A stretch of DNA of 64,000 bases. Source: Algimonas porphyrae (GTDB lineage: Bacteria > Pseudomonadota > Alphaproteobacteria > Caulobacterales > Maricaulaceae). A program made the position numbers and the translations under genes. Of the stretch, positions 26,675 to 51,829 are shown piece after piece (the stretch's first letter is position 1; each line of letters begins with the position of its first letter). Under the pieces are notes generated by a model that was given only the letters and a program-made list of their open reading frames with translations, was not told where the DNA came from and ran no database searches. Where the stretch lies: positions 2,048,001-2,112,000 of the forward strand of contig NZ_CP163424.1 of assembly GCF_041429795.1 (NCBI RefSeq), read 5' to 3'.

Positions 26675-26701
26675 TTGACAGAATCGGAACAAGTGTAGAA
26701 C
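26675..26701 (+). promoter_or_regulatory. lexA promoter
   Basis: TTGACAG (26675-26681) and TGTAGAAC (26694-26701) are separated by 12 nt. This fits the Caulobacter housekeeping pattern TTGACGS-N10-14-GCTANAWC with few mismatches. The SOS box overlaps the spacer and -10 region. Confidence 0.6.
26687..26701 (+). promoter_or_regulatory. SOS box (LexA operator) of lexA
   Basis: GAAC-AAGTGTA-GAAC is an exact GAAC-N7-GAAC, the reverse complement of the alphaproteobacterial LexA site GTTC-N7-GTTC. It lies 38-52 nt upstream of the lexA start and covers the -10 element, as expected for autorepression. Confidence 0.9.
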
Positions 26702-26738: not shown

Positions 26739-27380
26739 ATGCTGACCCAGAAACAGAAAGATCTTCTGCTCCTCATCGATACCCGTATTCGCGCGGTCGG
26801 TGTGCCACCTTCCTATGATGAAATGAAAGATGCACTCGGTCTGGCGTCGAAATCGGGAATACACAGGCTGATTACGGCTCTGGAGGAACGCGGCTTCGTG
26901 CGGCGTCTCCCCAACAAAGCTCGTGCACTGGAAGTGATCAAACTGCCGCAAGGGCTGCAAAAGGATGAGCCGCTTGCGCCCGTTGCTGCCAATGATAGCT
27001 ACGAAATTCCGTTTGTCGGAAAGATTGCGGCAGGCTTACCGATTGCAGCAATCGAGGACTCCCATAATCTCATGAGCGTGCCGCCCTCAATGCTAGGTAA
27101 TGGCGACCATTACGCGCTTGAGATCGAAGGCGAATCCATGACCGGCGCAGGCATCATGGACGGCGATGTCGTCGTCGTTCGCAAAACCAATACGGCCCGG
27201 AATAACGAAATCGTAGTCGCATTGGTCGATCAGGACGAAGCGACTTTGAAGCGGATCTATAAACGCGACGGTGTAGTCGAACTGATTGCGGAAAATCCGG
27301 ATTATCCGACGCGCAGCTATGGACCTGACCGTGTCGAGGTTCAGGGTGTCCTTGTTGGCCTCGTCCGCAATTACAACTAA
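26739..27380 (+). CDS. lexA: LexA repressor
   Basis: The product has 213 residues from ATG 26739, with AAGGA 7 nt upstream. The N-terminal winged-helix domain reads LTQKQKDLLLLIDTRI through SKSGIHRLITALEERGFVRRLPNKARALE. The autocleavage bond is Ala98-Gly99 in AAGLPI, and the protease dyad is Ser133 (EGESM) and Lys171 (ATLKRI). On DNA damage RecA filaments trigger cleavage and the SOS regulon is induced. Its own SOS box overlaps the promoter. A second locus with a perfect SOS box lies at 51.0 kb in this window. Confidence 0.97.
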   Translation: MLTQKQKDLLLLIDTRIRAVGVPPSYDEMKDALGLASKSGIHRLITALEERGFVRRLPNKARALEVIKLPQGLQKDEPLAPVAANDSYEIPFVGKIAAGLPIAAIEDSHNLMSVPPSMLGNGDHYALEIEGESMTGAGIMDGDVVVVRKTNTARNNEIVVALVDQDEATLKRIYKRDGVVELIAENPDYPTRSYGPDRVEVQGVLVGLVRNYN

Positions 27381-47403: not shown

Positions 47404-50400
47404 TTAGGCGGCAATCTCTTCAATCGTTTCAATCGCCCGATTGGCTTTGAGCGCCTTTCGAATACCCGGATCGATCGCCCAGCTGCCGCTGAGTTGCCAC
47501 CGCGCCTCGCGTTCCGGGGTCAACGGCGCGGACAGCTCGATCACTCCGGATTGCAGATGCGGTGCATCCCGCAGCTTGCAAAGCATGGCTTCGAGTTCGT
47601 CCAGCGTCTCTGCGCGGGCGTCGCGCAAGCGGATCCGCAAGCCTCTAGGCGGAGCCGTCCCTGTCTCGGACCGATCGGAACCAGACAGTAAGGAGACAGA
47701 CTGGGCAAAGAAGCGCACGTCGCCGCCCTCACCCTCGACCCGAACCTCGCAGATCACGGCGTTGCCTGCAGACATGGTATCACGTTTCGAAAAAAGCAGG
47801 TCTTCGCGGATGAAGAGTTCATATTCGCCTGTCGGGTCAGACAGACCCAGATAGGCGAAACGCTTGCCATGTTTGGAACTGCGTTCCTGGCGGCGCCTGA
47901 CGATCCCGGCAACACGGAAATTCTTCTTGCCCTTGGCCACACACTCTTCGAGCTGGTTTGACAGAACGACTGAATGCGTATCATCGGAAAGATACTCATC
48001 CAGAGGGTGTCCGCCGAAATAGAAACCGACAGCCCCTAATTCATGCTCCAGGGCTTCGACAGTCGACCAGTCAGACTGTACGATCAGGTCCGGATCGGGC
48101 GTCGCGTCTTCGATACCCCCGAAGAGATTGACCTGAGCAGATTCACGCTCATGGGTCGCCAGCGCACCGATCTTCTGCAGAATTTCGGCGGATGCCAAGG
48201 CTGTCGCACGCGATACGCCAAGCCCGTCAAAGGCGCCTGACCGAGCGAGGTTTTCCATGGCCCGCTTATTGACGATCCGCATGTCGACACGCCGGGCAAA
48301 ATCATAAATGTCCGTGAAGAGTCCGCCGCTCTCGCGAACCGAGACGACATGTTTCATCGCCTCAAGCCCGACATTCTTGAGGGCGCCGAGGGCATAGAGG
48401 ACCTTCCCGTCCTTGACGTCGAAGTCAGCCATGGAGCGGTTGACGCAAGGCGGCTGGACTTCGACCCCGATGCGCTTCGCTTCTTGGAAGAAGAAGGCCA
48501 GCTTTTCGGCAACACCGAGGTCAAGACTCATGATCGCGGCTAGAAAATGGGCCGGATACAGCGCTTTCAGATAGGCCGTCTGGAACGAAATCATCGCATA
48601 GGCCGCAGCGTGCGACTTGTTAAAACCGTAGCCTGCAAATTCATTGACGAGATCGAAGATGCCGGCGGCCTGGTCCCGATCGACACCGCGCGCAACGGCG
48701 CCGTCGATGAATTTATCGCGCTGGCGGTCCATTTCCGCCTGATCCTTCTTGCCCATGGCCCGTCGCAGAAGATCGGCATCACCCAGTGAAAAGCCGGACA
48801 GGATCTTGGCGATTTCCATCACCTGCTCCTGGTAGATGATGATACCGTATGTTTCCTCCAGCAACTCCTGGAGCTTCGGGTGCGGATAGCGGATATCCTG
48901 CCGCCCGAACTTGCGTTCGATGAAATCCGGAATGTTGCGCATGGGTCCGGGTCGGTAGAGGGAGATGATGGCGGTCAACTCTTCGATCGAATCCGGCGCC
49001 AGCTTGCGCAGCGCGTCCCGCATGCCGGAACTTTCCAGTTGGAATACACCCGCCGTAAGCCCGTCGGCCAGCGGCTTGTACGGTTCCGGCACAGATGTAT
49101 CGACGGAGGCCAGGTCGACCTCTATACCGTCCTTGCGCAGCAGTCCAAGACAGCGATCGATCACTGTGAGCGTTTTCAAGCCAAGGAAATCGAATTTCAC
49201 GAGGCCGGCCTTTTCCGCCCACTTCATTGTAAACTGTGTCGCTGGCACTTCGGACCTCGGATCGCGATAAAGCGGCACAAGTTCGGTCAGTGGCCGGTCG
49301 CCAATGACGACCCCCGCCGCATGGGTCGACGCATTGCGGTAGAGCCCCTCCAGCGATAACGCCGTGTCCAGAAGGCGACGCACGGTCGGATCGGACCGCC
49401 TAGCGTCCTGTAATGCCGATTCCATATTGATTGCCTGCTGCAACGTGACGGGACTGGCAGGATTGTTCGGGACAAGCTTGGCCAGCCTGTCGACTTGGCC
49501 GAGTGGCATCTGCATGACTCGACCGACATCGCGCACCACCGCCCGTGCTTGCAATGTTCCGAAGGTGATGATCTGCGCGACTTGGCCATCGCCATATTTG
49601 TGGCGAACATAATCGATCACCTCACCACGCCGTTCCTGACAGAAATCAATATCGAAATCGGGCATGGAAACACGTTCGGGATTGAGGAAGCGCTCAAACA
49701 GCAGACCGAAGCGAAGCGGATCCAGATCCGTAATCGTCAAGGCCCAGGCGACGACAGAGCCCGCACCGGACCCGCGACCTGGGCCGACGGGAATATTCTG
49801 GGCCTTGGCCCATTTGATGAAGTCCGAGACGATCAGGAAATATCCTGGAAAGCCCATCTCCCGAATGACGTTGAGTTCGAATTCGAGCCGTTCGAAATAG
49901 ACCTCACGCGGTTCAGCCAGCGGCACTGACTCAAGCCTGGCTTCAAGGCCTGCATGCGCTTCGACCGACAGAATGTCGTCCTCGGACTGGCTGCCGTCGC
50001 CAAAATGCGGCAGGATCGGCTTACGCTTCGGGGCGCGAAACGCGCAACGCTGGGCGATGGCAAGCGTGTTAGCGAGCGCTTCGGGCAGATCCGAGAACAG
50101 CGCCAGCATTTCTTCGGACGACTTCAGATAGTGCCGGGTTGTCAGCTTGCGGCGATCCTGCTCCAAGACATATGACCCCTCGCTCATCGCGAGCAAGGTA
50201 TCGTGCGCGTCATACATTTCCGGACCCAGGAAATAGGGATCGTTCGTCGCGACAAGCGGTAAATCCATCGCATAGGCAAGGTCGATCAACTCGGGCTCAA
50301 TGCGTGACTGCTCCGGCAGGCCGTGTCGTTGCAGTTCGACATAGAGTGCGTTCGGAAACTGTGCCGCCAAGATGGAGAGCCAGCGTCTGGCTTCATCAGG

Positions 50401-50859
50401 GCGTCCCTGGATCAGAAGACGGTCGAGCGCTCCGTCCGTCCCTCCCGTCAGAGCGATGACGCCCTCCGTCCGTCCTGTCAGGCGGCTGGCCTTGATGTGA
50501 GGCACCTCCATTCCGTCAACATCCAGAAACGCTTCGGATGAGAGCGCCATGAGGTTTTCATAGCCAGTTTCGTTCTGGGCAAGCAGAACGAGGGACCCAT
50601 CAGGGTCTTTGTGCAACTGTCCGGGCTGTCTTTCCCCCTCGAGATCCATGGACAGGGTCACACCGATAATCGGTTGAATTCCCGCGCCGACCATGACCTC
50701 TGAAAATTCGAGTGCGCCGCAAAGATTGTTCGTATCGGTAATCGCGATTGCGGGCTGTCGATAGCTGTTAAGACGATCCGCCGTCTCTTTCATCTTCAGC
50801 GCGCCTTCCAGCAAGGAATAGGGCGAGCGCATCCTCAGATGAACGAAGTCGCGGATCAT
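47404..50859 (-). CDS. dnaE: DNA polymerase III alpha subunit
   Basis: The product has 1151 residues. The N-terminal PHP domain starts FVHLRMRSPYSLLEGALKM. The catalytic palm has Asp401 and Asp403 in PDFDIDF, the same numbering as E. coli, with GPGRGSGAGSVVAW just before. Later come the tandem HhH, OB and C-terminal domains. It is the replicative polymerase. Its ribosome binding site (GGAGG) overlaps the end of the 31-codon ORF 5 nt upstream, and the only evident promoter for both carries an SOS box. Confidence 0.97.
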   Translation of the reverse strand: MIRDFVHLRMRSPYSLLEGALKMKETADRLNSYRQPAIAITDTNNLCGALEFSEVMVGAGIQPIIGVTLSMDLEGERQPGQLHKDPDGSLVLLAQNETGYENLMALSSEAFLDVDGMEVPHIKASRLTGRTEGVIALTGGTDGALDRLLIQGRPDEARRWLSILAAQFPNALYVELQRHGLPEQSRIEPELIDLAYAMDLPLVATNDPYFLGPEMYDAHDTLLAMSEGSYVLEQDRRKLTTRHYLKSSEEMLALFSDLPEALANTLAIAQRCAFRAPKRKPILPHFGDGSQSEDDILSVEAHAGLEARLESVPLAEPREVYFERLEFELNVIREMGFPGYFLIVSDFIKWAKAQNIPVGPGRGSGAGSVVAWALTITDLDPLRFGLLFERFLNPERVSMPDFDIDFCQERRGEVIDYVRHKYGDGQVAQIITFGTLQARAVVRDVGRVMQMPLGQVDRLAKLVPNNPASPVTLQQAINMESALQDARRSDPTVRRLLDTALSLEGLYRNASTHAAGVVIGDRPLTELVPLYRDPRSEVPATQFTMKWAEKAGLVKFDFLGLKTLTVIDRCLGLLRKDGIEVDLASVDTSVPEPYKPLADGLTAGVFQLESSGMRDALRKLAPDSIEELTAIISLYRPGPMRNIPDFIERKFGRQDIRYPHPKLQELLEETYGIIIYQEQVMEIAKILSGFSLGDADLLRRAMGKKDQAEMDRQRDKFIDGAVARGVDRDQAAGIFDLVNEFAGYGFNKSHAAAYAMISFQTAYLKALYPAHFLAAIMSLDLGVAEKLAFFFQEAKRIGVEVQPPCVNRSMADFDVKDGKVLYALGALKNVGLEAMKHVVSVRESGGLFTDIYDFARRVDMRIVNKRAMENLARSGAFDGLGVSRATALASAEILQKIGALATHERESAQVNLFGGIEDATPDPDLIVQSDWSTVEALEHELGAVGFYFGGHPLDEYLSDDTHSVVLSNQLEECVAKGKKNFRVAGIVRRRQERSSKHGKRFAYLGLSDPTGEYELFIREDLLFSKRDTMSAGNAVICEVRVEGEGGDVRFFAQSVSLLSGSDRSETGTAPPRGLRIRLRDARAETLDELEAMLCKLRDAPHLQSGVIELSAPLTPEREARWQLSGSWAIDPGIRKALKANRAIETIEEIAA

Positions 50860-50864
50860 AGGGT

Positions 50865-50960
50865 TCAGCCTCCGATTACCATTATCCAGACCGACATCAT
50901 GGTCACAAATGCTGCGAGAACGATAGCGGCCCCAAGGTCGTGCGCGAACTGTTTCATCAT
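50865..50960 (-). CDS. 31-residue membrane protein, candidate SOS-induced division inhibitor (SidA-like)
   Basis: A 31-codon ORF starting ATG-ATG at 50960 with AAGGGG 6 nt upstream, ending TGA at 50865, five nt before dnaE. The product begins MMKQFAHDLG and continues as one hydrophobic helix (AAIVLAAFVTMMSVWIMVIGG), so a single-pass inner-membrane microprotein is predicted. A perfect SOS box lies 41-55 nt upstream. Caulobacter SidA is a 29-residue, single-pass, LexA-controlled protein that blocks septation through FtsW/FtsN. Size, membrane segment and SOS control match. As I recall, sidA also lies beside dnaE, but I cannot verify this. A mere leader peptide for dnaE is the alternative. Confidence 0.75.
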   Translation of the reverse strand: MMKQFAHDLGAAIVLAAFVTMMSVWIMVIGG

Positions 50961-51000
50961 GGTTATCCCCTTACTTATTCAGGTGCTGCCACTTTGTTCT

Positions 51001-51015
51001 GTTCTTATTTTGTTC
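51001..51015 (-). promoter_or_regulatory. Perfect SOS box upstream of the small ORF and dnaE
   Basis: Plus-strand GTTC-TTATTTT-GTTC matches GTTC-N7-GTTC exactly. In transcription sense it reads GAACAAAATAAGAAC, strongly resembling the lexA operator. Confidence 0.88.
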
Positions 51016-51025
51016 CGCAGTCAAG
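51004..51025 (-). promoter_or_regulatory. Candidate promoter of small ORF-dnaE
   Basis: Minus-strand CTTGAC (51020-51025) is a perfect -35. A weak -10-like TAAGAAC overlaps the SOS box about 12 nt downstream. The arrangement (CTTGAC, then GGAACA, then AGAACAGA) parallels the lexA promoter. Confidence 0.5.
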
Positions 51026-51127
51026 TGAGCGGGATTGGTTTCCCCCATCGCGCCGCACGCAATGTGGATATTAAGGATGATCGTAAGTATACTGCAGAGA
51101 TACGTTAGAGCGTCAGAAACAGACTGT

Positions 51128-51829
51128 TCAATAGGACGGAAGAGTAGGAACGTATGAGACGATCAAGCCTTCGCGCACGGTCAGCAGACGGTCCATATAG
51201 GAGGCGAGTTCCATATTATGCGTGGCGACCAGCGCGGCCACGCCTTCCTGTCGCGTCAGGCGGTAAAGCTGATCGAATACGGTCGCGCTTGTCGCCGGAT
51301 CAAGATTGCCCGTCGGCTCGTCAGCCAGCAGGACTTGCGGCTTGTTAGCGAGCGCGCGCGCAATCGCTACACGTTGTTGCTCCCCGCCCGACATCTGACT
51401 GGGACGATGCGTCAGGCGCTCGGCAAGCCCCATCTCGCCCAGCAGGCGGCGGGCTTCCGACTTGGCTTCGCGGGCGCCCTTCCCGGCCACCATCTGGGGG
51501 ATCATGACATTCTCTTCCGCCGTGAACTCCTTCTGCAAGTGATGGAATTGATAAACCATGCCGATCCGGTCACGGCGGATGGCCGTCCGCTCATCATCCG
51601 GCAGGGCCAGACACTCGCGGCCATTGATGAAGACCTCGCCGTCATTCGGCTTTTCGAGCAAACCTGCCGCATGCAACATGGTCGACTTGCCGGACCCGGA
51701 AGGACCGATCAGCCCAACCATCTCGCCCGGAAAAATATCGACATCGGCTCCGGCTAGGACTTTCAGCAGCCCCGCACCGGATTTGTAGGAACGATGTAGC
51801 CCGCGAACGGATAGAACAGGTCTAGTCAT
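51128..51829 (-). CDS. lolD: Lipoprotein-releasing ABC transporter ATPase
   Basis: The product has 233 residues. [20 protein letters not shown] is Walker [16 protein letters not shown] the signature, and [16 protein letters not shown] Walker B, with a MacB/LolD-type context. It drives LolC-type permeases to release lipoproteins from the inner membrane to LolA. Several putative client lipoproteins are encoded in this window. It overlaps lolC by 8 nt. Confidence 0.93.

Follow-up and report, generated by a model that had tools for sequence, protein, structure and literature searches.

Directly upstream of dnaE in Algimonas porphyrae, behind a LexA (SOS) box, lies a short open reading frame (ORF), and the question that this locus raises is whether it is a gene in its own right, which gene it would then be and how far the same arrangement extends beyond this genome. 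The window, the whole stretch of 64,000 nucleotides that was analysed, carries the ORF on the minus strand at 50865-50960 (31 codons and a stop). It begins with ATG-ATG and gives a product of 31 residues, MMKQFAHDLGAAIVLAAFVTMMSVWIMVIGG, or of 30 if translation starts at the second in-frame ATG, with a Shine-Dalgarno sequence AAGGGG (50967-50972, minus) placed 6 nt 5' of the first ATG. The best 19-residue Kyte-Doolittle mean is 2.49 and the product has a single hydrophobic helix. The LexA box GAACAAAATAAGAAC, an exact GAAC-N7-GAAC, is found at 51001-51015 on the minus strand, 40 nt 5' of the ATG, with a -35-like TTGACT at 51019-51024 (minus) a further 3 nt beyond it (CTTGAC at 51020-51025). 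The ORF with its AAGGGG site, its one helix and its place before dnaE had been described correctly, coordinates included, in an earlier sequence-only reading of this DNA, and the exact SOS box and CTTGAC -35 element that it placed upstream are both present. A pattern scan of 50700-51300 returned, on the minus strand, no sigma-70-type site using TTGACT and no terminator-like site.

The neighbour on the downstream side is dnaE, encoding the DNA polymerase III alpha subunit (47404-50859, minus; NCBIfam NF004226 over its cut-off), the start of which at 50859 is 5 nt 3' of the ORF stop. A GGAGG seen by eye inside the 3' end of the ORF (50869-50873, minus) is the probable ribosome site of dnaE, and translational coupling of the two frames through it is possible. 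Upstream on the same strand is a gene for an ABC ATPase of the LolD type (51128-51829, minus; the best match is LolD, below the curated cut-off). Between this gene and the SOS box is a DnaA-box-like motif, TGTGGATAT (51063-51071, plus), which agrees in 8 of 9 positions with the DnaA box consensus; it may be part of a basal, replication-linked dnaE promoter and is one candidate for the source of basal dnaE expression. Among 10 loci in which this interval was read, a perfect TTATCCACA was seen in four (L102, L115, L117, L123) and TAATATCCACA in two, L107 and the window's own. Pfam and NCBIfam scans of the 31-residue peptide gave no match above cut-off; a prokaryotic diacylglycerol kinase (PF01219) was considered and rejected, as its score of 13.7 bits is below the cut-off (22.3) and the likeness is limited to the one helix. 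A plasmid search with the locus gave no match.

The number of SOS boxes in 64 kb is by itself not beyond chance, with 3 exact boxes against 2.25 expected and at least 3 in 39 of 100 shuffles, and genome-wide the pattern occurs 110 times, as compared with 69 for its backward reading. GAAC-N7-GAAC is nevertheless most likely the LexA site in this genome, because exact boxes precede both lexA and the recA match. The gene of the presumed repressor, lexA (26739-27380, plus), has its box GAACAAGTGTAGAAC at 26687-26701 on the plus strand, 6 nt behind a TTGACA, a layout similar to that before the small ORF, where the spacing is 3 nt; in the case of the recA match the box is about 180 nt upstream. Another exact box (G000:C1:2276883-2276897) is followed some 230 nt on by a weak match to the RecA family at 2277125-2277466, which is below cut-off and within a frame of 495 residues that is possibly RadA, so that this RadA-like frame is a possible further SOS gene. 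What makes the box before the small ORF significant is that it is conserved upstream of the ORF across families.

A peptide search gave a match in 26 of 60 genomes at E <= 10, and 23 of these 26 (the organism's own included) belong to the genus or the family, their E values being no higher than 0.04. The ratio pN/pS of the ORF is 0.05-0.37 in 14 pairs from the window's family, and changes at codon positions 1, 2 and 3 number 943, 503 and 1881 over 139 pairs that are not independent. Judged from this pattern of substitution, the frame is under purifying selection. Conservation of frame and box in close relatives was one of the two points on which the sequence-only reading had proposed to be judged; the comparison has been run, frame and box are both conserved, and the reading is not refuted. 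A second weak profile match in the same genome (G000:C1:1265565, E 0.009) has no exact box and no dnaE at its locus.

SidA of Caulobacter is a 29-residue inner membrane protein that is induced by LexA cleavage and interacts with FtsW (PMC4211646). A 29-residue ORF with an ATG start is found behind a box, directly before dnaE and with dnaE 35 nt downstream, in one of the genomes compared (G139). This genome is taken by us to be C. crescentus: its PopZ is identical to the C. crescentus sequence, and a reading of its FtsW from the ATG for a 390-residue product puts A31, F145 and A246 where the names of the published mutants place them. The sidA gene of C. crescentus is presumably located before dnaE, and the 29-residue ORF behind the box supports this. 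Around 90 of the 97 exact boxes in that genome (the 7 with GC-rich spacers were left out) the sole other hydrophobic ORF of 26-33 residues is L377, which is more than 110 nt from its box and has a TTG start or an inner ATG. When an ORF from the genus Caulobacter was searched for in 75 genomes of that genus, 71 gave a match, among them all 60 of the good ones. The window's ORF had been put forward as a functional analogue or ortholog of SidA, and this is supported; as a 29-codon ORF stands behind a box at the same place in the C. crescentus-type genome, an ortholog is better supported than a mere analogue, even though direct similarity is weak. On the comparisons made here, the ORF is a real gene and can be regarded with good confidence as an ortholog of sidA.

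The place before dnaE allows the ORF to be looked for from dnaE itself. An ORF was counted as SidA-like if it had 28-37 residues, one hydrophobic helix and an ATG start (GTG was allowed in L186) and was upstream of dnaE, with a hydropathy cut-off of 1.25, as at 1.6 four loci of the Caulobacter family (L152, L161-L163) were missed. For L104, L115, L222 and L227 the peptide was assigned manually, and a peptide-motif filter was intended for nine loci with several candidates. The sample from the order comprised 90 loci from the best-scoring listed part of 383 genomes with a dnaE match, to which six Caulobacter-genus loci (two of them counted) and 30 loci of one further family (f2) were added. The ORF precedes dnaE in every locus read from the window's family (f1; 50, counting that of the window), and likewise in all 22 of Caulobacter's family (f3; 20 and the two Caulobacter-genus loci), in the four further Caulobacter-genus loci outside that count, in all 12 of family f5 and in 4 of 8 of family f4. 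Family f2, of the same order, has it in 0 of 30 loci, where looser rules brought up two TTG-started hydrophobic ORFs that are unlike SidA by eye. In six of these 30 loci an exact box, AT-rich in three of them, stands no farther than 520 nt from dnaE; the three with an AT-rich box (L448, L449, L451) have it 96-177 nt before dnaE without a small ORF, possibly SOS control of dnaE that remained after loss of sidA.

Within the Hyphomicrobiales the ORF precedes dnaE in 74 of 79 named loci, that is 73 and L054, in which it was located only on looking 519 nt upstream of dnaE. Three Bartonella and two Chelativorans loci (L023, L024, L035, L051, L094) have neither a SidA-like ORF nor an exact box in the 520 nt before dnaE, apparent losses to judge from these upstream regions; ORF and box are both present in two loci from uncultured Bartonella (L052, L064).

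Of 161 loci with the ORF, 139 have an exact box on its upstream side at a distance of 8-140 nt (f1 41/50 with the window, f3 21/22, f5 12/12, f4 3/4, Hyphomicrobiales 62/73). Nine of the 50 loci in the window's family keep the ORF and have no exact box, and in L133, L136, L138, L141, L144, L145, L147 and L150 of that family the second half of the box reads GAAA or GAAT for GAAC, which suggests that LexA control is weakened or altered in part of the family. Among the 139 loci, 108 have a TTGAC no more than 32 nt beyond the upstream edge of the box, against 2% in shuffles and mainly at offsets of 3, 14 and 19 nt; in f5 (1/12) and f4 (0/3) it is mostly absent.

Whether these ORFs share an origin was addressed through their sequences. 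A near-ungapped core alignment across families shows, by eye, D or E at column 8 in every one of its 34 rows, and F18 is found in 90% of rows or more, while the window ORF and the C. crescentus-type ORF are 24% identical. With a profile from which the family in question had been left out, the C. crescentus-type ORF scored 18.0 bits, the best of 9660 shuffles reaching 14.0, and the window ORF scored 14.3 bits, barely over the best shuffle at 14.2. Among 1211 other hydrophobic 30-mers from the window, taken with its sidA masked, the top score on the profile used for the window ORF was 8.9 bits; an unmasked version of this control gave maxima up to 40 bits that were presumably pieces of sidA. Members of the left-out family were above all 9660 shuffles in 20 of 22 cases for f3, 52 of 73 for Hyphomicrobiales, 3 of 50 for f1, 0 of 4 for f4 and 0 of 12 for f5, and above all 1211 hydrophobic 30-mers in 22/22, 66/73, 22/50, 4/4 and 0/12 respectively. 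Profiles from single families are too weak to join all families: one from Caulobacter's family alone gave the window ORF -1.2 bits, and one from the window's family alone gave the C. crescentus-type ORF 11.3 bits, where the 0.1% shuffle level was 10.4 and the best shuffle 15.1. Taken through intermediate families, the scores support a common origin for the ORFs of most families. As the profile of the remaining families recognised 0 of 12 ORFs of f5, homology there is argued from place and box.

If the ORF is sidA, a mode of action follows from what is known of Caulobacter, in which translation, induction by damage, insertion in the membrane and the block of FtsW are all carried over from published C. 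crescentus work. LexA bound to the box inside the promoter would keep sidA off, a repression that is predicted here from the exact promoter box, until DNA damage led to RecA-triggered cleavage of LexA and release of sidA. SidA would then enter the inner membrane as one helix and keep the septal wall synthase FtsW/FtsI/FtsN in an inactive state, as in the model of PMC4211646, so that cells would elongate without dividing until repair was complete. It is very probable that the window's ORF is such a LexA-repressed, damage-released, one-helix block of FtsW/FtsI/FtsN that holds division until repair. The sequence-only reading had named FtsW and FtsN together as what SidA inhibits; FtsW is named as the partner of SidA, and FtsN as that of DidA (PMC4211646). 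Since dnaE starts 5 nt after sidA, a shared transcript would probably raise dnaE as well during SOS.

The genome of A. porphyrae has lexA, recA and an FtsW-type protein, the match of the last, at 332.5 bits, falling slightly short of the curated cut-off of 337.5. It is known that the FtsW mutation A31K suppresses SidA in Caulobacter (PMC4211646), and AlphaFold 3 models place SidA on TM7 of FtsW at low confidence (PMC13396833). The FtsW of A. porphyrae retains F145 and A246 and has L at position 31, a combination that neither supports nor excludes binding of SidA.

The closeness of dnaE brings in a different explanation, namely that the ORF is an upstream leader that tunes the translation of dnaE, with the LexA box serving dnaE itself. 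A start of dnaE only 5 nt on and a GGAGG within the ORF end would suit a leader, dnaE is listed with the genes for which SOS regulation has been reported in C. crescentus (PMC3323433), a uORF role has been raised for small ORFs of 5'-UTRs in Sinorhizobium meliloti, where sORF25 lies before dnaE1 (PMC10117765), and some loci of f2 have a box before dnaE without the ORF. Yet the distance from ORF to dnaE runs from about 5 nt to more than 300 nt across loci while peptide, helix and acidic residue are kept, selection falls on the amino acids, and the presumed ortholog in Caulobacter is known to inhibit division, all of which makes a leader unlikely. Another explanation is a single-helix SOS membrane peptide with some other function, membrane-active or toxic as in the case of DinQ of E. 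coli, that had become like SidA by convergence. Small SOS peptides of one helix with other effects do exist (DinQ, PMC3567139) and direct similarity to SidA is low, but the fixed place before dnaE is common to the Caulobacter ORF, the alignment is near-ungapped with a shared acidic residue and an F-V core, and the leave-one-family-out scores exceed the controls, so that convergence is very unlikely. That ORF and box are both there by chance would agree with three exact boxes in 64 kb being the expected number, but this is excluded by conservation, purifying selection and the co-occurrence of box and ORF, and virtually no weight can be given to it.

The same unit was then looked for across the class. 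A profile search of 385 genomes of the class found 26 with a match at E <= 0.05. Not counting the window itself, 27 matched loci were examined. In 12 of them a dnaE start follows downstream, and 11 of these 12 also have an exact box; the remaining 15 are either unrelated or ambiguous, as in the case of L247, a short locus with box and ORF in which no dnaE start was seen. Three matches of this search (L241, L252, L253) are diacylglycerol kinase-like by eye. From dnaE, 89 loci in 68 further families were read, taken from the best-scoring listed part of 360 genomes with a dnaE match: 21 have both box and ORF and are spread over 12 families, 60 have neither, 6 have the box only (two of these, L271 and L272 of family f14, in fact having longer versions of the ORF) and 2 the ORF only. 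The co-occurrence has a one-sided Fisher p of 5e-13, inflated by related genomes, and the rates in shuffled sequence are 1.3% and 2.8%. Because best-scoring loci were read and some of the loci behind the dnaE profile carry the ORF, these frequencies may be biased upwards, and small-genome lineages were hardly sampled. As box and ORF occur together in loci of the class, it can be argued that the box serves the ORF, with the unit absent in many lineages.

It is likely, on this evidence, that SidA is an ancient and mostly unrecognised SOS division checkpoint across a large part of the Alphaproteobacteria, kept as a fixed unit of box, sidA and dnaE, that the LexA boxes assigned to dnaE mainly serve sidA, and that the unit in the window is tight enough to couple a block of division to a rise in polymerase. 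The window's own sidA is an ordinary one and suggests a checkpoint that extends far beyond the examples named so far in the literature searched; it is the probable spread through the class that is the interesting part. In that literature, which was mostly open-access and did not include the first report on SidA, Caulobacter is the only alphaproteobacterium with a named SOS division inhibitor, and no assignment of SidA outside that genus was met; the novelty of a class-wide spread is for this reason likely, although not proven by so limited a search. The fixed place of the ORF, which can be found from dnaE, provides a ready list of candidates that includes Rhizobium and its kin, and gives reason to re-read the LexA sites that have been assigned to dnaE. 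The alignment, with its conserved acidic residue and F-V core, is a basis for mapping how a helix of some 30 residues could stop FtsW.

Small membrane division inhibitors that are induced by damage are known elsewhere, DidA in C. crescentus and YneA, SosA and ChiZ in Gram-positives, and several such inhibitors have been modelled as binders of FtsW (PMC13396833). These are like the window's product in kind and unlike it in being other genes under other regulators; YneA has a LysM domain and SosA has none (PMC13396833). DidA, which is SOS-independent and binds FtsN (PMC4211646), was considered as an identity for the ORF and rejected, as DidA is induced independently of SOS through DriD whereas the window's ORF has an exact LexA box. 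A likeness in place is offered by sORF25 of S. meliloti, a novel small ORF found by Ribo-seq and proteogenomics in the 5'-UTR of dnaE1 (PMC10117765), the main text of which has no occurrence of SidA, LexA or DNA damage. It stands before dnaE1 as the SidA-like ORF stands before dnaE in 74 of 79 Hyphomicrobiales loci, and from its position it may be SidA. The nearest of the known systems is SidA of C. crescentus. The two are 24% identical, dnaE follows 5 nt on here and 35 nt on in the C. crescentus-type genome, FtsW differs at position 31, and the window's ORF is known as a sequence only; they are alike in length (29 and 31 residues), in the one helix, in the LexA box within the promoter, in the place directly before dnaE and in the shared acidic residue and F-V core.
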